The notes under the pieces: model-generated
The model's database searches: none
What the model was told of the DNA's origin: nothing
Seen by the model: only the letters and a program-made list of their open reading frames with translations
Part shown: piece by piece, positions 15,265 to 30,310 of the stretch
Position numbering within the stretch: the first letter of the stretch is position 1
How the letters are laid out: every line of letters starts with the position of its first letter
Assembly (NCBI GenBank): GCA_003222055.1
Contig: QHUT01000073.1
Location: 1 to 37,252 of the forward strand
Length of the DNA stretch: 37,252 nucleotides
Reading direction: 5' to 3'
Source: Gemmatimonadota bacterium
GTDB taxonomy: Bacteria > Gemmatimonadota > Gemmatimonadetes > Gemmatimonadales > GWC2-71-9
Translations under genes and position numbers: made by a program

Positions 15265-16332
15265 TCAGCGGTGATGCTCGTGCCCGGCCATCTTCATGGG
15301 CATCACGGTGCCTGCCATGTTCATCTCGTGTCCACCGGCCAGACGCATGTAATGGAGGTAGTCCTGGTGGTAGAGCGAGTCGCGCGGCTCGGCGGCCGGC
15401 CACGTGACGCCGCGATCGGGCACGAACAGGCCGCCCACCACGCCCATGCCGCCGTCGGGAATCGGCTGACCGGTCGGGTTGTCGTACGATACCGTCACGC
15501 GATAGCGGTGCTCGGGCACCACGTGCACGCCGAGCCGGGTCCATCCATAGAGGAAAGCGACGGGAACCGACTCGATGTGGCCGCCCGCGTCGGCCACGGG
15601 AGCCGCACGGTAGATCACCTCACCCGTCGTCGCGTCCGCAAATTCGATCAAGCGGCCGTAGTCGTGCATGTGCCCCCCCAGACCGACGATCTTCCCCGGC
15701 ACGATCGGGTTCCCTTCGTACGATCGCGACGAGCGGCCCGGCGGGAGCGTGAACGACTTGTCGCCGACCGGGAACGCCACGTCCATCTGCCAGGGTGAGG
15801 CGCTGAACAGCGGCCACGGCCGGCCGGTCGGCGTGAAATTCATGGCGAGCCGGACGCGCGCCTGCGGGTAGGACGCGCTGGTCAGGTTCTCGACCATCGC
15901 GCTGGCGACGACGTGCTCCCCGCGCTTGAGCGGCAATCCGAACAGCAGCCGCGGCAGGCGAATCGCGCCGGTCTCGTGCCCGGCCGCGAGCAGGCGCCGC
16001 GAGATCGGGAGAAACAGCTCGCGATGATCGGGGTCGATGAGATTGAAGTGATGGATCAGCTCATCGGGCAGCGGGTGTCCGGCGCTGTCCACGACTTGCA
16101 CCCGGAAGCCATAGATGAATCCCGTCTCCGGAATCTCGAGCGTCGCGACGGGCGGCTGCGCGATCATGTGATGCGGCGTGTTGGCCGGCAGATCCGTCGG
16201 GGCGAGATCGATGACGAGCATGCCTGCTGCCGCGTCGCGAAAGATGCGGGCGGCAGCGGCGTCCGGCATGGGAAGAGCCCCGTCGCTCGACCGAGCGAGC
16301 AGGAGGAGACCGAGGAGCAGGCGGTTGATCAT
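15265..16332 (-). CDS. Secreted copper-type protein, PHM/DBH monooxygenase-like
   Basis: A 355-residue protein with an N-terminal hydrophobic export signal (MINRLLLGLLLLARSS). ELIHHFNLIDPDHR near residue 95 has the His-His pair, and LGGHMHDYGRLIEF near residue 218 the HxH pair, in the order and spacing of the two copper sites of peptidylglycine/dopamine monooxygenases. The tail is rich in Met and His (MNMAGTVMPMKMAGHEHHR), as in copper-binding proteins. The gene lies 61 bp after a cupredoxin gene and 1 bp before the HAD gene. Hydroxylase activity is not proven; a copper chaperone or a sensor of similar fold is possible. The ATG at 16332 lacks a clear ribosome binding site. Confidence 0.6.
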   Translation of the reverse strand: MINRLLLGLLLLARSSDGALPMPDAAAARIFRDAAAGMLVIDLAPTDLPANTPHHMIAQPPVATLEIPETGFIYGFRVQVVDSAGHPLPDELIHHFNLIDPDHRELFLPISRRLLAAGHETGAIRLPRLLFGLPLKRGEHVVASAMVENLTSASYPQARVRLAMNFTPTGRPWPLFSASPWQMDVAFPVGDKSFTLPPGRSSRSYEGNPIVPGKIVGLGGHMHDYGRLIEFADATTGEVIYRAAPVADAGGHIESVPVAFLYGWTRLGVHVVPEHRYRVTVSYDNPTGQPIPDGGMGVVGGLFVPDRGVTWPAAEPRDSLYHQDYLHYMRLAGGHEMNMAGTVMPMKMAGHEHHR

Positions 16333-16393
16333 GGCGCGGGGGAGGCCCCGGGGGTGGCCGGGGCCGTTTCACGCTGCAGTCGAGCCTCGCCGG

Positions 16394-16852
16394 CTATTGC
16401 ACGGTGATCGTTATGTGCATGCCCAGCGCCACGTGCGGCATACAGTAGCCCTTGTAGACGCCCGCCGGGGCGCCCGCAAAGGACACGTCGTATTTCTCGT
16501 TGGGCTGAGTGAGGAACGGTCCCGTGAGGTCACCCATCGGGTTCGGCATCCCCTTCTTCAGCGCGTCGGCGCCGCCCTTCGGCACCGAGTCGCCGTAGAA
16601 GGCAACATTGTGCGGGCCGCCGGATACATTGATGAAACGAACCGTCGTGCCGGTCTTGATCGCCAGCTTGGTTGGCTCGAACGAGGCCTGGCTCGTGCCG
16701 TTGCCGGTCATCTTCACTTCGACCACGGCGCCGGCCGGCTCGGCGGTCGGTGCCGGCGTGGCAGCCTCGGCCTGAGACGCCGTCGACTTCTTCTCGCCGC
16801 CGCAGGCGACGGCCGTGAACGCGACGAGCGTGGTGAGCAGGGTGAACCGCAT
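16394..16852 (-). CDS. Cupredoxin (plastocyanin-like) lipoprotein
   Basis: A 152-residue exported electron-transfer or copper-binding protein. A lipobox (FTAVAC) at the N-terminus predicts lipid anchoring, followed by an Ala/Glu/Thr linker and one cupredoxin domain. The type 1 copper ligands are visible: His in GGPHNV, then Cys, His and Met in GYCMPHVALGM. The ATG at 16852 has a strong GGAGGGAGT site about 6 nt upstream. A perfect Rex-type palindrome lies 36 bp before the start, so expression probably follows redox state. It may be first in a transcript continuing through the copper protein at 15265 and the headgroup genes. Confidence 0.85.
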   Translation of the reverse strand: MRFTLLTTLVAFTAVACGGEKKSTASQAEAATPAPTAEPAGAVVEVKMTGNGTSQASFEPTKLAIKTGTTVRFINVSGGPHNVAFYGDSVPKGGADALKKGMPNPMGDLTGPFLTQPNEKYDVSFAGAPAGVYKGYCMPHVALGMHITITVQ

Positions 16853-16888
16853 TGCAAACTCCCTCCGGGACGATAGACGAGATGGTGC

Positions 16889-16906
16889 TTGTGAACGCGT
16901 TCACAA
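16889..16906. promoter_or_regulatory. Perfect 18-bp Rex-type operator
   Basis: TTGTGAACGCGTTCACAA is an uninterrupted palindrome and matches all fixed positions of the Rex consensus TTGTGAA-N4-TTCACAA, the NADH/NAD-sensing repressor site. It also fits the looser CRP/FNR pattern TGTGA-N6-TCACA, so that family remains an alternative. It lies between divergent genes, 36 bp from the cupredoxin start and 86 bp from the rhodanese-MBL start, and abuts AATATATT (16905-16912), which could be a -10 element on either strand. Confidence 0.65.
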
Positions 16907-16992
16907 TATATTCGCGAGTCCCGAAAACGGGAGCCCTCCCGTGACGTGCGGGCGTTGCGCATTCGCCGCGCGTCCGCGACACTGATCTCGTC

Positions 16993-18144
16993 ATGCCGGA
17001 GCCATCCGTCCCGCGTATCCCCGCCGCCGACTTGGCGCGCCGCCTCGACCAGGGAGAGCGCCTTCAGCTGCTCGACATCCGAACGCCCGAACGCGTCGCC
17101 CGCGGCCGCGTCACGCTGGGCGCGACCCTCGACTTTCGAGCCCTGCCCGCCTCGGCGATGTACGAGCTCCAGACGCTCGAGTCGCTGCGACTCGATGCCG
17201 CGACTCCGGTGGCGGTGATCTGCGGTCACGGCAACTCGAGTCAGCAGGCCACGCAGTACCTGCGCCAGCGTGGCTTCGATGCGCTCTCGGTGACCGGCGG
17301 CATGGCCGCGTGGGAGACGGTGTACCTGCCGCGCCGCCTGTCCCCTACCCCGGCGCTCCAGCACGTCGTGCAGCTCGATCGCGTCGGAAAGGGCGCCCTC
17401 TCCTACGTGCTGGTGAGCGACGGCGATGCCGTGGTGGTGGACCCGGGTCGTCACCTCGAGCCGTACGAAACGCTGGCCCGCTCCCTCGGCGCCACGGTCG
17501 CCGCGGTGATCGACACCCACATGCACGCCGACTACTTGAGCGGCGCCCGCGCCGTCGCGCGGCACTGGCGGGTCCCCTATTTCCTCCATCCCGACGACGC
17601 CCGCTCCCCCTACGATGGCGCAGAGGGTCGCGTCGCGTACCAACCCCTCAGTGACGGCGACACCATCGCGTTCGGTCGGGCCACGCTCGTCGCCACGCAC
17701 GTCCCAGGACACACGCTCGGGAGCGTCGCGCTGTTGGCCGACGAGGCGTTGGCGCTCACGGGTGACTTTTTGTTCGTGCGGTCGGTGGGCCGCCCCGACC
17801 TGGGCGGACAGCGCGACGCCTGGGCAGCCCGGCTGTGGGACAGCCTCGAGCGCGTGCGCCAGACCTGGCCGGGGGACCTCCTCGTCCTCCCCGCCCACTA
17901 TGCAAGCGAAACGGAGCGTCGCGCCGATCGCAGCGTGGCCGCGCGGTTCGACGTGGTCGCCGCGACCAACGAGGCAGCGGCCATCCAGGAGAAGCGCGAG
18001 TTCCTCGCCTGGGTGGCGGACCATACCGCAGCCGCGCCCGAGAGCTACCGCACGATCAAGCTCGCGAATCTGGGACTGGTGGAGGTCGCGGACGCCGACG
18101 CGGAGGCGCTGGAATTCGGGCCAAACCAATGCGCCGTCGCATAG
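16993..18144 (+). CDS. Rhodanese-metallo-beta-lactamase fusion, persulfide dioxygenase-like
   Basis: A 383-residue cytoplasmic protein. Residues 1-110 are a rhodanese domain with Cys77 in CGHGNSS as the persulfide-carrying nucleophile. Residues from about 125 form a metallo-beta-lactamase domain with THMHADYLSG (HxHxD), VPGHTLGS, LTGDFLFV and LPAHY metal ligands, like ETHE1/persulfide dioxygenases and glyoxalase II. The expected role is oxidising glutathione or low-molecular persulfide to sulfite, or sulfur transfer. Most fused enzymes of this type have rhodanese at the C-terminus, so the order here is reversed. It is divergent from the cupredoxin across the Rex-type site. The ATG at 16993 lacks a strong ribosome binding site. 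Confidence 0.8.
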   Translation: MPEPSVPRIPAADLARRLDQGERLQLLDIRTPERVARGRVTLGATLDFRALPASAMYELQTLESLRLDAATPVAVICGHGNSSQQATQYLRQRGFDALSVTGGMAAWETVYLPRRLSPTPALQHVVQLDRVGKGALSYVLVSDGDAVVVDPGRHLEPYETLARSLGATVAAVIDTHMHADYLSGARAVARHWRVPYFLHPDDARSPYDGAEGRVAYQPLSDGDTIAFGRATLVATHVPGHTLGSVALLADEALALTGDFLFVRSVGRPDLGGQRDAWAARLWDSLERVRQTWPGDLLVLPAHYASETERRADRSVAARFDVVAATNEAAAIQEKREFLAWVADHTAAAPESYRTIKLANLGLVEVADADAEALEFGPNQCAVA

Positions 18145-22557: not shown

Positions 22558-22941
22558 TCACTGCACCACGATCGTGCCGCGCATTGCCTGCGCAACGTGG
22601 ATGGTGCAGTGATAGGTGTATGTGCCTGTCTGCAGCGTCTGCGTATAGGTGCCCGACATCATCGTGCTCGAACTGAGGGGGAGCAAGCCCCCCGGCCCGG
22701 TGTCCCATGTCACGTTGTGCCCGTTCGACGGCGTTGCCCAAGTGAACGTCACCTGTCCCGCCGGTACCGTGTCCAGCGCCGGGCTGAAGAAGTCGTTTCC
22801 AACGGTGATCGTCGTGCTATGCCCGCCGCCCCCGCCGCCCCCGCCGCCCCCTGTGCTGTACGGCGACGTGGACCCGCCGCACGACACGAGCAGCACCGCT
22901 CCCGCGATCCCTGACACCAGCGACAGCCACTTCGACCGCAT
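22558..22941 (-). CDS. Cupredoxin lipoprotein with poly-glycine linker
   Basis: A 127-residue exported protein. A lipobox (LLVSC) is followed by GGSTSPYST and a run of ten Gly, then a plastocyanin-like domain: ITVGNDFFSP, His in GHNV, and Cys, His and Met in YHCTIHVAQAM. The type 1 copper site should carry one electron. The linker is coded by repeats of CCGCCCCCG, so its length may vary in frame. The ATG at 22941 has GGAGGG upstream. It lies 125 bp after actF on the same strand and could serve alternative complex III as acceptor (inference). Confidence 0.85.
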   Translation of the reverse strand: MRSKWLSLVSGIAGAVLLVSCGGSTSPYSTGGGGGGGGGGHSTTITVGNDFFSPALDTVPAGQVTFTWATPSNGHNVTWDTGPGGLLPLSSSTMMSGTYTQTLQTGTYTYHCTIHVAQAMRGTIVVQ

Positions 22942-23066: not shown

Positions 23067-24275
23067 CTAGTGTCGCTCGCGCTCCACGGCGTCCGCCGCG
23101 AGGCGGGGCGAGAGCATCGGGTAGCGCGCGCCGAACCAGCCGAGCGACAGCAGGAACAGCCCGCCAAACAGCAGCGCCACGCCGATTTCGGGAACGCCGA
23201 GCGCCGGCCCTGCCCCGCCGTTGATCGACGGCACGATCTCGAGGTAGCGTTCCAGCCAGATGCCGAGCAGGCTCACGAGCGCGAACGTCGTGAGCGAAAG
23301 AGAGGACGTCTTGGGCTTGACGCCCAGCAGCCCGATGAACGGCACGACGAACACCAGGAGGAACACCCACACGCCCAGCGGCTTCCACGGACCGATCAGC
23401 CGGTAGAAGATGAAGAACGTTTCCTCAGGCAGGTTCCCGTACCAGATCACCAGAAACTGCGCCCACATGAGGTACGCCCAGAAGACCGTGAACCCGAAGC
23501 AGAGCTTGCCCAGGTCGTGCTGCTGCTTGGATGAGAACAGTGCGTCGAGTCCCATGCGCCGCCGCAGCGCGATCGCGAGCACGGCGAGCGCCATGAGCGC
23601 GGCGAGGAAGCAGCCCATGAAGTAGAACGCGCCGAACAGGCTACTCACCCACTTGTGGGCGAGCGACATGATCAGATCGAACGCCAGAAGGCTGTAACCG
23701 AAGGCGTACGCGACGACGAGCACGGCGGCATCACGAGCGATCGCGTCCCGGTTCTCGAGCCGGTCCGCCGGGCGGCCGTCGGCCAACTCGCGGACGTCGG
23801 GCGCCAGGTCGTGCTGCACGAAGCGCCACGACAGCCAGGTCAGGAGCGCGTAGATGGCGCCATTCCGGAGAAAGAACGTCTTGGTTGTGAGCCAGGCGCC
23901 CAGGTCCGGGCGCCGATCGTGCAGCCACCCGAAGACGTGAGCGCGCCCCACGATGAGCCCGATGAACAGCGCGAGGGAGACCCAGAGGAAGGCCCCGGCC
24001 GCCTCGGCCAGCCGGATGACCACGCCGGACCAGTGCCCCTTGGCGAGCTTCAGCGTGGCGGCGAACACCACCATGCCCTGCGCCAGACCGGTCCAGAACA
24101 TGAAGTTGAAATGCCACGACTGCCACGCGCGCGCTGCGTCACCGCCGGCGAGGGTCCACAAGAACGCGGCGCCCCCGACCAGGGCGAGCACCGTCCCGAA
24201 GAGCGTGAAGGTCCGGGCCGGGAAACGCCGCGCCTTCTCGACCAGCTCGGCGCGCGACACGCTCGCCGCGGTCAT
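23067..24275 (-). CDS. actF: Alternative complex III membrane subunit ActF
   Basis: A 402-residue polytopic inner-membrane protein with about ten hydrophobic segments, last of six act genes. WHFNFMFWTGLAQGMVVFAATLKL and RDAAVLVVAYAFGYSLLAFDLIMSL, with FWAYLMWAQFLVIWYGNLPEETFFIFYR, are typical of ActF, which with ActC forms the quinol-facing, NrfD-like membrane core. The complex passes electrons from menaquinol or ubiquinol to cytochrome c or cupredoxin. The ATG at 24275 overlaps the actE stop (ATGA). The length is normal for the family. Confidence 0.9.
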   Translation of the reverse strand: MTAASVSRAELVEKARRFPARTFTLFGTVLALVGGAAFLWTLAGGDAARAWQSWHFNFMFWTGLAQGMVVFAATLKLAKGHWSGVVIRLAEAAGAFLWVSLALFIGLIVGRAHVFGWLHDRRPDLGAWLTTKTFFLRNGAIYALLTWLSWRFVQHDLAPDVRELADGRPADRLENRDAIARDAAVLVVAYAFGYSLLAFDLIMSLAHKWVSSLFGAFYFMGCFLAALMALAVLAIALRRRMGLDALFSSKQQHDLGKLCFGFTVFWAYLMWAQFLVIWYGNLPEETFFIFYRLIGPWKPLGVWVFLLVFVVPFIGLLGVKPKTSSLSLTTFALVSLLGIWLERYLEIVPSINGGAGPALGVPEIGVALLFGGLFLLSLGWFGARYPMLSPRLAADAVERERH

Positions 24276-24820
24276 CGTCTTCCGGTGGGGCTCTTGGCCC
24301 CTGCCTGCAGCGTGCGCACGTAATTCACGAGGTCCCAGCGATCGGCGCCGCGCACTTTGTCGCCGTACACGGGCATCAGGCCCCGCCCCATCACCTGCCC
24401 GCTCACGATGACCGCGTAAATGTAGCCGTCGGTGCGTCGGGCGATCGTATCGTTCACGAGCGAGCGTACGCCGAAGAAGGGACCGCCCGCCGCCGAGGAA
24501 ATCGGGCCGTCGCCGTGACCCGTCGGGCCGTGACAGACGAGGCAGTAGGTCTCGTAGAGGAAGCGCCCGTGGTTGATCGACTCGGAGGTGCGGGTGCGGG
24601 GATTCGCCAGCCGGTCCGCCGTCTGGAGGCTCATCAGCGGCTCCGCGCCGGTCATGGGGACCGTCCCAGGCACCGGGGGGATCGGGCGGGCGTACGGCTT
24701 AATGCTGCGCTGATGACGCATCGTGGCGAACCAGCCGATGCGATGCACGACATCGTCGGGATTGCAGGCGAGGGTGGCAAGCGCGGCAAGGGCGGCAAGG
24801 GCCGCACCGGGTCTACGCAC
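24272..24820 (-). CDS. actE: Alternative complex III monohaem cytochrome c ActE
   Basis: A 182-residue exported c-type cytochrome. The lipobox LATLAC makes it a lipoprotein; the signal peptide is a repetitive ALAALAALATLAC coded by 9-bp tandem units. One haem-binding motif, CLVCHG in YETYCLVCHGPTGHGDGP, and a distal Met in RGLMPVYGDKV are present. ActE takes electrons from the ActB/ActA part and passes them to the acceptor. The GTG at 24820 has GGAGGA 8 nt upstream and overlaps the end of actD by 8 nt. Confidence 0.9.
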   Translation of the reverse strand: MRRPGAALAALAALATLACNPDDVVHRIGWFATMRHQRSIKPYARPIPPVPGTVPMTGAEPLMSLQTADRLANPRTRTSESINHGRFLYETYCLVCHGPTGHGDGPISSAAGGPFFGVRSLVNDTIARRTDGYIYAVIVSGQVMGRGLMPVYGDKVRGADRWDLVNYVRTLQAGAKSPTGRR

Positions 24821-25354
24821 GGCGCACTTCCTCCGCCCCGGCCCCACGGAGCAAAGACTCGACCTGGCTCTGGCGCGCCGACTCGCTCGGGACGAAGATC
24901 CCGAACTTGTCGTTGGTGAACCGCGCATCGTAGGCCACCGTGCCCAGGCGCCGCGCGGCGAACAGCGCGTTGAAGGCGATGCCGAGAATGGTGGAGAGCG
25001 CACCGAACAGCACCGTCATCTCGAACATGATGACGACGTACGGCGGGATCGAGCCGATCGGCTTGCCGCCGAGCACGATGGGCCAGTCGTACGACATGTA
25101 CAGCGTGAGCCAGGCGCCGATCGCACACCCGGCGATGCCGCCGATGAGCGTGAACATCCGCACCGGGCTCACCGGCTGGTCGAGCGCGTCCTCCAGCTCG
25201 TGGCGCGGGACCGGCGAGTAGACCGTGAAGTCGCTGTGCCCGCCCTTGCGAAGCTGCCGAATCGCCTCGAGCACCGCGTCCAAGTGCCCGAAGACCCCGA
25301 GCACCCCCGGTGTGGGGGGTGGATGGAAGATGGCGGTCAGCGGGTTGACGAGCT

Positions 25355-25358
<4 letters not shown>
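24813..25358 (-). CDS. actD: Alternative complex III subunit ActD
   Basis: A 181-residue inner-membrane protein (DUF3341 type). The N-terminal cytoplasmic part (FGHLDAVLEAIRQLRKGGHSDF, VYSPVPRHELEDAL) precedes two helices, FTLIGGIAGCAIGAWLTLYM and MTVLFGALSTILGIAFNAL. It is a small structural subunit of the complex. The start is GTG at 25358, forming GTGA with the actC stop. It begins VKLVNPLTAIF, consistent with the family. Confidence 0.85.
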
Positions 25359-26698
<1,340 letters not shown>

Positions 26699-26702
26699 CG
26701 CC

Positions 26703-29684
26703 TCAGCCCTCCACCACGGCGCCGTGCACCACCTTCGCGAGGTAGGTGATCGCCGGCTGCGTGTTCAGGTCCGCGAGCACGTGGTAGCCGCGCGGGTCAC
26801 GGGCGAGCGCCGCGACCCGCGAGCTACTGTCGCGCAGGTCGCCGAACACGATGGCCTCCGACGGACACGCCTGTGCGCACGATGGCGTGATGTCGCCGTC
26901 CTGGACGTTGCGATCTTCGAGACGGGCCCGGTTCTGCGCGCCGCGGATCCGCTGCACGCAGAACGTGCACTTCTCCATCACGCCCTTTTCGCGCACCGTG
27001 ACGTCCGGGTTGAGCAGCATGTTGAGAGGATCGGGCCAGCTCTCCCACTCGCCGCCCGGCTCGGCATAGTTGTACCAGTTGAAGTAGCGGACCTTGTACG
27101 GGCAGTTGTTGGCGCAATAGCGAGTCCCGACGCAGCGGTTGTAGACCTGGCCGTTCAAGCCGTCGGCCGTATGATACGCCGCGTACACCGGGCAGACCGG
27201 CTCACACGGGGCGTTGCCGCACTGCTGGCACAGCATCGGTGTGACGACCGCACCAGTGGGTCGGCCCGCCTCCCCACCGGTGTAGTAGCGCTCGATCCGC
27301 AGCCAGCTCATCTGCCGCCGGCGCACCACCAGCTCCTCGCCCACGGTCGCGAGGTTGTTCTCGGCGTAGCACGCCGTCACGCACGCCGAGCACCCGGTGC
27401 ACTTCGCCAGGTCGATCGCCATGCCCCAGCGCGGATGCGGACGCGCGTAATCTCCCAGGGACGCCGCGTCGTGCTGGGCCTCCGCCCAGTCCGCGAGCGC
27501 CCTGTCGGCATAGGGCGGCGTCTCCCGCTCCAGGAAGGCGTGCGCGCCGGGCTTGAGCTGCTGCGCCCGGGTGAGCGACAGGACTTCGATCACGCCGCGT
27601 CCTTGCTCGCGCGCATCTCCTTCGAGCGTCGCCAGACGGCGGTGGTCGCCGGTCTTCGCCACGGCGACGCTCACGGCGAAGACACGCCCGCCGTACGCGG
27701 CGGGTGCGTCACTGAGGAGCTCGAACGCGTTGAACGAGCGGTCCTTGGCGTAGCGGCCGTAGGCCTTGTGGCCCTGCCCGGTGGGGATGGCCAGCACGTC
27801 GGGGCGGACGCCCGGGGTGATCCAGACGGGCGCCCGCAGCGCGCCGTGCGGCGACGTGAGACGCAGCACGTCGCCGTTCGCCAGCTGCCACTTGGCGGCC
27901 GTCTCCGGGTGCACCTCGACCCACCCGTGCCAGGTGATCTTCGACACGGGATCGGGGAGCTCCTGCAGCCACGGCTTGTTCGCCCCGCGACCGTCGTGCA
28001 GCGCGATGGACGGGAACACGATCAACGTGGTGCCTTGCGCCGGCGTCGGGGCGGCGCTCCCCAACACCTGCCCGACGGCCGCGTTCAGGCGCACCGCCTG
28101 GACTGGCACCCCGGCGTACACGCCGCCGTGCTGCAGGGCGTCGTCCCAAAACTCTTCGAAGCTCCGGCCCCGGCCGTACCGCCGGTGCAGCTCCTGCCAG
28201 CGGCCCTGCAGATAGTCCTTGAACGTCCCGGGCTTGCCCGCGAGCCGCAACAGCACGTCGCCGGCGTGCATCGTGTTCGCGAACACGGGCGCCATCACCG
28301 GCTGCTGCAGCGCGTGCACGCCGCTGCGCGGCTCGGAATCGTTCCACTGCTCGAGCGGGTGGAGATCGGGAAGCACGAGGTCGGAGGCGGCGGCGGTCTC
28401 GTCCAGATAGGACGAAAAGCTGACCTTGTACGCGACGTGCCCGAGCGCCTGGGAGAACGCGGCCGGGAGCGAGTGCGCCGGGTTGGCGCCATGCACCAGC
28501 AGCAGCGCCACCCTGCCCGCGCTCAGGTCGCCCGCCAGGTCGGTGAGCTCCTGGAACGAGCCACCGCCCGCGAGCGCGTGGTTGGGCCCGAATTGCACGG
28601 TCTTCCCCACCTGCCCCGCCACGTAGTTGAGGATGTTGACGGCGGCGACGATCTCCGCGCCATTGGGGTACTGCGCCGCGATCCCGCCGGCCACGGCGAG
28701 GCCGCCCCGCGAGGCGGCGAACTCGCGGGCGAGGCGCGTGATCACCGTGGCCTCGATCCCGACCGCCGCCGCGACCCGTTCGGGGGCGTTGGCATCGAGC
28801 GCAGCCCGCACGCGTCCCACGTCCGCGGGCAGCGGGGCGAGGCGGCGGGCGACGATGACGTGCGCCATCGCGAGCGCGAGCATGCCCTCGGTCCCCGGCG
28901 CCGCGGCAATCCATTCATCGGCGCTCATGCCCGTGAGCGCGAGGCGCGGGCCGACGTAGACGAACTTGGCCATGGACGCGTCGCGGCCCCCCGTGAAGGC
29001 ATGGGCCCGGGTGAAGCTGTTCTGGTAACCCACCGGCGAGAGCCACGTCTCCATGAAGTCGGCGCCGAACGACACGATGTAGCGCGCGTTGGCAAAGTCG
29101 TACCAGGGAATCGCGGGCGTGCCGAACGCGATGCGGTTCCCCGCGCGCAGCGCTTCGAACGCGAACGGCTCGTAGGTCACATGCCGGCCGCCGACCTGCC
29201 TGATCCAGGCGTCGACCAGCTCGCCGAACGACCCGCTCTCGAGCCCCGTGACGAACGCGATCCCCTTGCCGCGCGCCTCCTTCAGTTTGGCCTGTAGCCG
29301 CCCGACGGCGTCGTCCCACGACAGCTTCTGCCACGCGCCGTTCGCGCCGCGGGCCATCGGATCCGTGACGCGATCGGGGTTGTACAGGCCCTGCAGGGCC
29401 GCTTGCCCGCGCGCGCACAGCCGGCCCTGGTTGATCGGGGACTCGGGGTTGCCCTCGAGCTTGATCACGCGGCCCTCGCGCACCTTGGCGTGCAGCCCGC
29501 AACCGGCCGCGCATTCGCGGCACGTGGTCGCGTAGTAGGTGGCGATACCGGGGACCTGATGCTCCGGGGGCACGAGGTAGGGGACGAGCTGTTCGGTGGG
29601 CTCCGGGCCGATGCCGCACCCCGTCAGGGCGGCGGCGCCGCCGCCCGTGGCGCCCAGGACTTTCAGGAACCGTCTGCGGTCCAT
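26703..29684 (-). CDS. actB: Alternative complex III molybdopterin-like/iron-sulfur subunit ActB
   Basis: A 993-residue protein beginning with a twin-arginine signal (MDRRRFLKVLGATGGGAAALTGCG), so it is exported folded. Residues to about 720 are a molybdopterin-oxidoreductase-like domain; near its start four Cys in TTCRECAAGCG and LCARGQAA match a [4Fe-4S] pattern. The C-terminal part is ferredoxin-like, with CTGCSACVTACYAE, CQQCGNAPCEPVCP, CVGTRYCANNCP and CTFC plus CAQACP, giving four cluster motifs that carry electrons from the quinol site to the haems. In studied complexes the first domain holds no molybdenum cofactor. The ATG at 29684 lies 11 nt after the actA stop. Confidence 0.92.
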   Translation of the reverse strand: MDRRRFLKVLGATGGGAAALTGCGIGPEPTEQLVPYLVPPEHQVPGIATYYATTCRECAAGCGLHAKVREGRVIKLEGNPESPINQGRLCARGQAALQGLYNPDRVTDPMARGANGAWQKLSWDDAVGRLQAKLKEARGKGIAFVTGLESGSFGELVDAWIRQVGGRHVTYEPFAFEALRAGNRIAFGTPAIPWYDFANARYIVSFGADFMETWLSPVGYQNSFTRAHAFTGGRDASMAKFVYVGPRLALTGMSADEWIAAAPGTEGMLALAMAHVIVARRLAPLPADVGRVRAALDANAPERVAAAVGIEATVITRLAREFAASRGGLAVAGGIAAQYPNGAEIVAAVNILNYVAGQVGKTVQFGPNHALAGGGSFQELTDLAGDLSAGRVALLLVHGANPAHSLPAAFSQALGHVAYKVSFSSYLDETAAASDLVLPDLHPLEQWNDSEPRSGVHALQQPVMAPVFANTMHAGDVLLRLAGKPGTFKDYLQGRWQELHRRYGRGRSFEEFWDDALQHGGVYAGVPVQAVRLNAAVGQVLGSAAPTPAQGTTLIVFPSIALHDGRGANKPWLQELPDPVSKITWHGWVEVHPETAAKWQLANGDVLRLTSPHGALRAPVWITPGVRPDVLAIPTGQGHKAYGRYAKDRSFNAFELLSDAPAAYGGRVFAVSVAVAKTGDHRRLATLEGDAREQGRGVIEVLSLTRAQQLKPGAHAFLERETPPYADRALADWAEAQHDAASLGDYARPHPRWGMAIDLAKCTGCSACVTACYAENNLATVGEELVVRRRQMSWLRIERYYTGGEAGRPTGAVVTPMLCQQCGNAPCEPVCPVYAAYHTADGLNGQVYNRCVGTRYCANNCPYKVRYFNWYNYAEPGGEWESWPDPLNMLLNPDVTVREKGVMEKCTFCVQRIRGAQNRARLEDRNVQDGDITPSCAQACPSEAIVFGDLRDSSSRVAALARDPRGYHVLADLNTQPAITYLAKVVHGAVVEG

Positions 29685-29695
29685 CGCGTCGGGCC

Positions 29696-30310
29696 TCAGT
29701 AGTGACACAGCGTGCAGTCGCGCGACACGTTGCGCTGGAGGTGGCAATTGACGCACCAGCCCATCTTGAGCGTGGCCACCTGGTAGACCTGCGGCATCGC
29801 GCGGACGTCCCCGTGACAGTTGATGCAGCTGTCGGTGCCCAGAACTTTGATATGCCGCATGTGTGGAAAGCGCACGAAGCCGGGGAGCGCGTGCACGCGC
29901 ACCCAGCGCGGCGGCTGCTTGTTGATCCACGCCCCCTGCACTTTCTTCACCTCCGCCACCTCGGCGCGGCGCGCGGCCGAGTCCTGGGCAGGATGCACCT
30001 CACCGCCGAACGCCCGCTTCCCCCCGCCGATCATCTGGTGGCAACCGAAGCACGTCTGTACCGCGGGGATGCCGGGCTCGCTTGAGGCGCTCACCGTGCT
30101 GTGGCAATACAGACACGGCACCTGCTCCTGGCCGGCGTGGACGTCGTGACGGAAGAAGATGGGCTGTCGCGGACCCTTGAGCCGCCCCGTATCGCTGATC
30201 ACGGGGGCCTTGACGGTTGCGGCGGGTTGACCGGTTTGTGCGGCGGCGGGGACGGCGATCGACACGGCGATCGCCACGCCCACCCCGACCCTACCACCCC
30301 TCTTCGTCAT
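29696..30310 (-). CDS. actA: Alternative complex III pentahaem cytochrome c ActA
   Basis: A 204-residue exported cytochrome with five CxxCH haem motifs in order: CLYCH, CFGCH, CINCH, CVNCH and CTLCH, the last ending the protein. A signal peptide precedes AAAQTGQ. QPIFFRHDVHAGQ and FVRFPHMRHIKV supply extra haem-ligand His. ActA takes electrons from the ActB clusters towards ActE or an external acceptor. It is first in the six-gene act operon. The ATG at 30310 has no strong ribosome binding site. Confidence 0.93.
   Translation of the reverse strand: MTKRGGRVGVGVAIAVSIAVPAAAQTGQPAATVKAPVISDTGRLKGPRQPIFFRHDVHAGQEQVPCLYCHSTVSASSEPGIPAVQTCFGCHQMIGGGKRAFGGEVHPAQDSAARRAEVAEVKKVQGAWINKQPPRWVRVHALPGFVRFPHMRHIKVLGTDSCINCHGDVRAMPQVYQVATLKMGWCVNCHLQRNVSRDCTLCHY

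Follow-up and report, generated by a model that had tools for sequence, protein, structure and literature searches.

A predicted Rex operator at the promoter of a plastocyanin-like copper protein gene in a Gemmatimonadales bacterium

The palindrome upstream of a cupredoxin gene in this member of the Gemmatimonadota is very probably an operator of the NADH-sensing repressor Rex, which would keep the gene off at low NADH/NAD+ and let it be expressed when NADH builds up. We infer Rex binding, the response to NADH and repression at the cupredoxin site from the sequence and its conservation. The window, that is, the whole stretch of 37,252 nucleotides that was analysed, carries the following features:

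16889 to 16906, no strand: predicted Rex operator TTGTGAACGCGTTCACAA, from its sequence and its conservation in orthologues
16394 to 16852, minus strand: cupredoxin of 152 aa (PF00127, E 8e-16), from the family match, the copper ligands and a lipobox-like TAVAC signal
16860 to 16866, minus strand: ribosome-binding site GGAGGGA, from the sequence, its position being conserved in orthologous rows
16905 to 16910, minus strand: -10-like element TATATT, which shares 2 bp with the operator, from the comparison of relatives
16928 to 16933, minus strand: -35-like element CTCCCG within the conserved CTCCCGTTTT, from the comparison of relatives
16993 to 18144, plus strand: divergent fusion of rhodanese and metallo-beta-lactamase domains (persulfide-dioxygenase-like), from family matches; a neighbour of the cupredoxin gene in three genera only
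16344 to 16365, minus strand: GC hairpin GGCCCCGG-CCACCC-CCGGGGCC 3' of the cupredoxin gene, a remnant terminator lacking a T-tail, from the comparison with relatives
15265 to 16332, minus strand: secreted-looking, His/Met-rich protein of 355 aa, the next gene downstream, from the sequence; its adjacency to the cupredoxin gene is not general
23067 to 30310, minus strand: alternative complex III-like (act) genes, encoding a multihaem cytochrome, a Mo-like/FeS fusion, an NrfD protein and a monohaem cytochrome c

In a scan of the window, TTGTGAACGCGTTCACAA agreed with the Rex consensus TTGTGAANNNNTTCACAA without mismatch (14/14 fixed bases), and the operator consensus TTGTGAAnnnnTTCACAA is likewise matched at 16889-16906. 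Half-sites and spacer form a single perfect 18-bp palindrome, located between the two divergent genes at 36 bp 5' of the cupredoxin ATG and 86 bp 5' of the ATG of the rhodanese fusion. The fit at every fixed base and the placement in a divergent region, both claimed in an earlier note on this DNA, are thereby confirmed. Scanning the whole window with up to three mismatches revealed no second Rex-type site, and shuffled sequences are expected to give 0.15.

The operator lies at the -10 element and start of a cupredoxin promoter predicted by conservation. The CTCCCG/TATATT pair is present in 25 of the 52 related loci that carry the site, at a spacing of exactly 17 bp in 19, and its conserved direction is towards the cupredoxin gene. 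A sigma-70 promoter scan of the region gave no match because the promoter departs from the consensus; the element emerged from the comparison of relatives. Across these, the operator overlaps the -10 element or comes shortly after it. In one genus (g3) it is shifted by about 10 bp, one helical turn, with the promoter spacing unchanged and the predicted start still covered. This geometry fits a repressor that would sit on the predicted start site. We also observed a block resembling GCGAAAACGCAACG at about 16949-16968 in the window; in many relatives it recurs at a distance of 16-29 bp upstream of CTCCCG.

The genome itself (3.69 Mb, 96% complete) was searched by pattern and by family queries. 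It encodes a single canonical Rex of 206 aa, whose N-terminal domain scores 73 bits against a cut-off of 27 and which lies above several curated Rex cut-offs. Moreover, the protein aligns over its full length with the solved structures of Thermus Rex and others (3ikt, 1xcb, 2dt5; E 7e-48), homologous regulators from other organisms with other target sets. Genome-wide, there are two perfect Rex-type sites and two with one mismatch. The other perfect site abuts rex itself, 1 nt from its start codon. The sites with one mismatch precede atpA and a gene that, from its sequence, we take to be AtpZ-like; the latter lies upstream of other F0 genes and has no match in NCBIfam. The ATP synthase genes atpZ and atpA are classical Rex targets. 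Thus, the two checks proposed earlier, for a rex gene in the genome and for further sites before respiratory genes, both turned out positively. In relatives, additional Rex-type sites precede nuoA, isocitrate lyase and actA-like multihaem cytochromes, and those before nuoA and the actA-like cytochromes in some relatives support a respiratory regulon.

The site is conserved together with the cupredoxin gene. Searching 500 bp upstream of 77 cupredoxin loci of the family with at most one mismatch allowed, we found it in 52. All of these carry GTGAA and TCACAA unchanged, whereas the four spacer bases are variable; the inner bases A7 and T12 are kept in 52/52 and 51/52 sites. Because invariant GTGAA/TCACAA halves around a free N4 are the Rex pattern, we count this footprint in favour of Rex. 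Shuffled cupredoxin upstream regions contained the site in 0 of 15,400 cases, and we reject a chance origin on this result and on the low expectation in window shuffles. In two sister families of the same order, the site precedes the best cupredoxin orthologue in 8 of 9 genomes, and four lower-scoring paralogous cupredoxins of these genomes have no site upstream. About one third of the family loci have no site before the cupredoxin gene, including those of a genus that has rex (g34), and it is also gone at loci of rex-less genomes (e.g. G087 and G099). Among named genomes, those most closely related are metagenome-assembled ones of Gemmatimonadetes, to judge from their record names mostly from soil-depth samples. 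Separately, at loci L188 and L210 (genus g13), perfect sites precede isocitrate lyase and an aminotransferase that is presumably akin to serine-glyoxylate aminotransferase; a glyoxylate link to Rex is possible there.

Presence of the site also tracks rex across the phylum. We surveyed 295 genomes, each at least 90% complete, of which 271 carry rex and 24 do not. Perfect sites occur in 240 of the 271 and in 2 of the 24 (Fisher p 1.2e-16, a value that overstates the strength of the association because related genomes are not independent). The reversed pattern, used as a control, was found 0 times in the phylum. Perfect sites are absent from the remaining 31 genomes with rex. Four of the rex-less genomes (G103, G105, G317 and G338), all devoid of the site, were assigned to this class by elimination. 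Congeners of both exceptions that carry a perfect site without rex (G120 and G138) do have the gene, and its apparent absence probably reflects assembly gaps. One entire genus, with at least six near-complete genomes (g80: G130, G158, G166, G177, G223 and G270), possesses neither rex nor perfect sites, an apparent loss of the whole Rex regulon. Another genus (g75; G110 and others) reaches up to 17 perfect sites per genome, against 1-4 elsewhere, and possibly has an enlarged regulon.

Other readings of the palindrome have to be weighed against these data. Its 14 fixed bases include a perfect CRP core (TGTGA-N6-TCACA) and the genome encodes three proteins of the CRP/FNR type that match HTH_Crp_2 clearly, which could suggest that an activator of this family acts on the cupredoxin or the dioxygenase gene. 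However, a CRP/FNR site is expected near -41.5 or -61.5 with the inner six bases free, whereas this one covers the predicted -10 and +1 and conserves the inner AA/TT, which CRP does not need. Overlap with the cupredoxin promoter is a repressor position and disfavours activation; the companion sites at rex and the atp genes also argue against such an activator. On the inner bases, the position and the co-occurrence with rex, we reject a CRP/FNR site as highly improbable. Neither of the two conditions that the earlier note gave as refuting its Rex reading, a genome lacking rex or a CRP/FNR-family protein at the site instead, is thus borne out by the sequence data. Alternatively, Rex may bind and have the rhodanese/dioxygenase gene as its main or an extra target, tying persulfide removal to NADH. 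The short distance to this gene and the retention of the pair in g1, g4 and g7 would agree with that; but these are the only genera where the two genes adjoin. In other relatives the site accompanies the cupredoxin gene, the dioxygenase gene being kilobases away or not found nearby, and the conserved promoter faces the cupredoxin. Since the dioxygenase neighbour is not conserved, we assign the site to the cupredoxin gene and regard the dioxygenase gene as quite an unlikely target.

How far Rex control of the cupredoxin promoter would extend downstream is a further question. All genes down to about 10.8 kb lie on the minus strand, with gaps of 61 bp and then 1 bp after the cupredoxin gene, so that one long transcript could run through the 355-aa gene into the headgroup genes. 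In addition, the hairpin behind the cupredoxin gene has no T-tail left in either this species or its 98%-identical sibling, and a simple terminator scan found no match there because a T-run is missing. Nevertheless, the GC hairpin itself is kept, the linkage of cupredoxin and headgroup genes is confined to the closest relatives, and most relatives examined have a T-tailed, terminator-like GC hairpin straight after the cupredoxin gene. When 73 loci were counted automatically, 61 showed a perfect hairpin of at least 7 bp, and in 39 TTT follows shortly. A Rex-governed long transcript therefore seems unlikely to us; transcription may reach the headgroup genes by read-through in this species, but such an arrangement is not an old one. 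The earlier note had linked copper-protein expression, and perhaps the whole headgroup operon, to the NADH/NAD ratio: the rex gene, the companion sites, the footprint and the co-occurrence strongly favour the former, and the restricted linkage and the intervening hairpin leave the latter weakly supported. As for the 355-aa protein, it has no family match, and its His/Met-rich C-terminus GHEMNMAGTVMPMKMAGHEHHR and GHMHDYGR motif suggest that it may bind copper.

The proposed Rex switch resembles known ones, and the genes that follow the companion sites in this genome make up the textbook set. In Streptomyces, Rex was bound at the rex, atpI and nuoA operons, and S. avermitilis Rex footprints ATGTGAACGCGTTCACAA at cydA1 (PMC5355995). 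This cydA1 ROP and the rex ROP TTGTGCACGCGTTCACAA are each identical to TTGTGAACGCGTTCACAA at 17 of 18 bases (PMC5355995). A regulon with rex, ATP synthase and complex I is common to both systems, as is, for the promoter predicted here, an operator placed on it or downstream of it. Unlike in Streptomyces, the predicted target in this Gemmatimonadota species is a blue-copper carrier and not cytochrome bd. Phrase searches of openly accessible literature yielded no report joining Rex or its regulon with a cupredoxin or blue copper protein, Rex with plastocyanin, or a Rex repressor with Gemmatimonadetes. The switch would be of a known type, with an apparently unreported target. For a soil phylum that has received little study, it provides a regulon open to testing and points to NADH build-up as the likely signal for production of a copper electron carrier. 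We would only tentatively go further, to a picture that we think rather doubtful as a whole: across Gemmatimonadales, Rex would tune the respiratory copper link, with the soluble carrier as the NADH-tuned step, in an order-wide regulon with rex and ATP synthase, in some members also complex I and alternative complex III, that here begins to read into lipid-headgroup genes.

The cupredoxin is of the plastocyanin/auracyanin type, with which it shares PF00127 and the C-x2-H-x4-M loop. Its type-1 copper ligands (His81, Cys137, His140 and Met145) are invariant in six homologues, and its best PDB matches are plastocyanins; it differs from these in scoring below the curated plastocyanin cut-off and in a lipoprotein-like signal, from which we predict a lipid anchor. 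At low NADH/NAD+, a Rex dimer would cover the -10 element and start site and block transcription. When respiration becomes limiting, NADH would accumulate and release Rex from the operator, allowing synthesis of the lipid-anchored copper protein and of additional Rex and ATP synthase. This carrier would then most likely shuttle electrons from alternative complex III to one of the three haem-copper oxidases that the genome encodes. The act cluster, lying about 6 kb away, is the likely electron donor; it unites multihaem cytochrome, Mo-like/FeS fusion and NrfD genes, not every subunit being assigned, and lacks a Rex site in the window even when up to three mismatches are allowed. These bacteria thus probably make the copper carrier when respiration backs up. 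A second, shorter cupredoxin gene with no Rex site nearby (PF00127, E 7e-7; 22558-22941, minus strand) lies just after the act genes.
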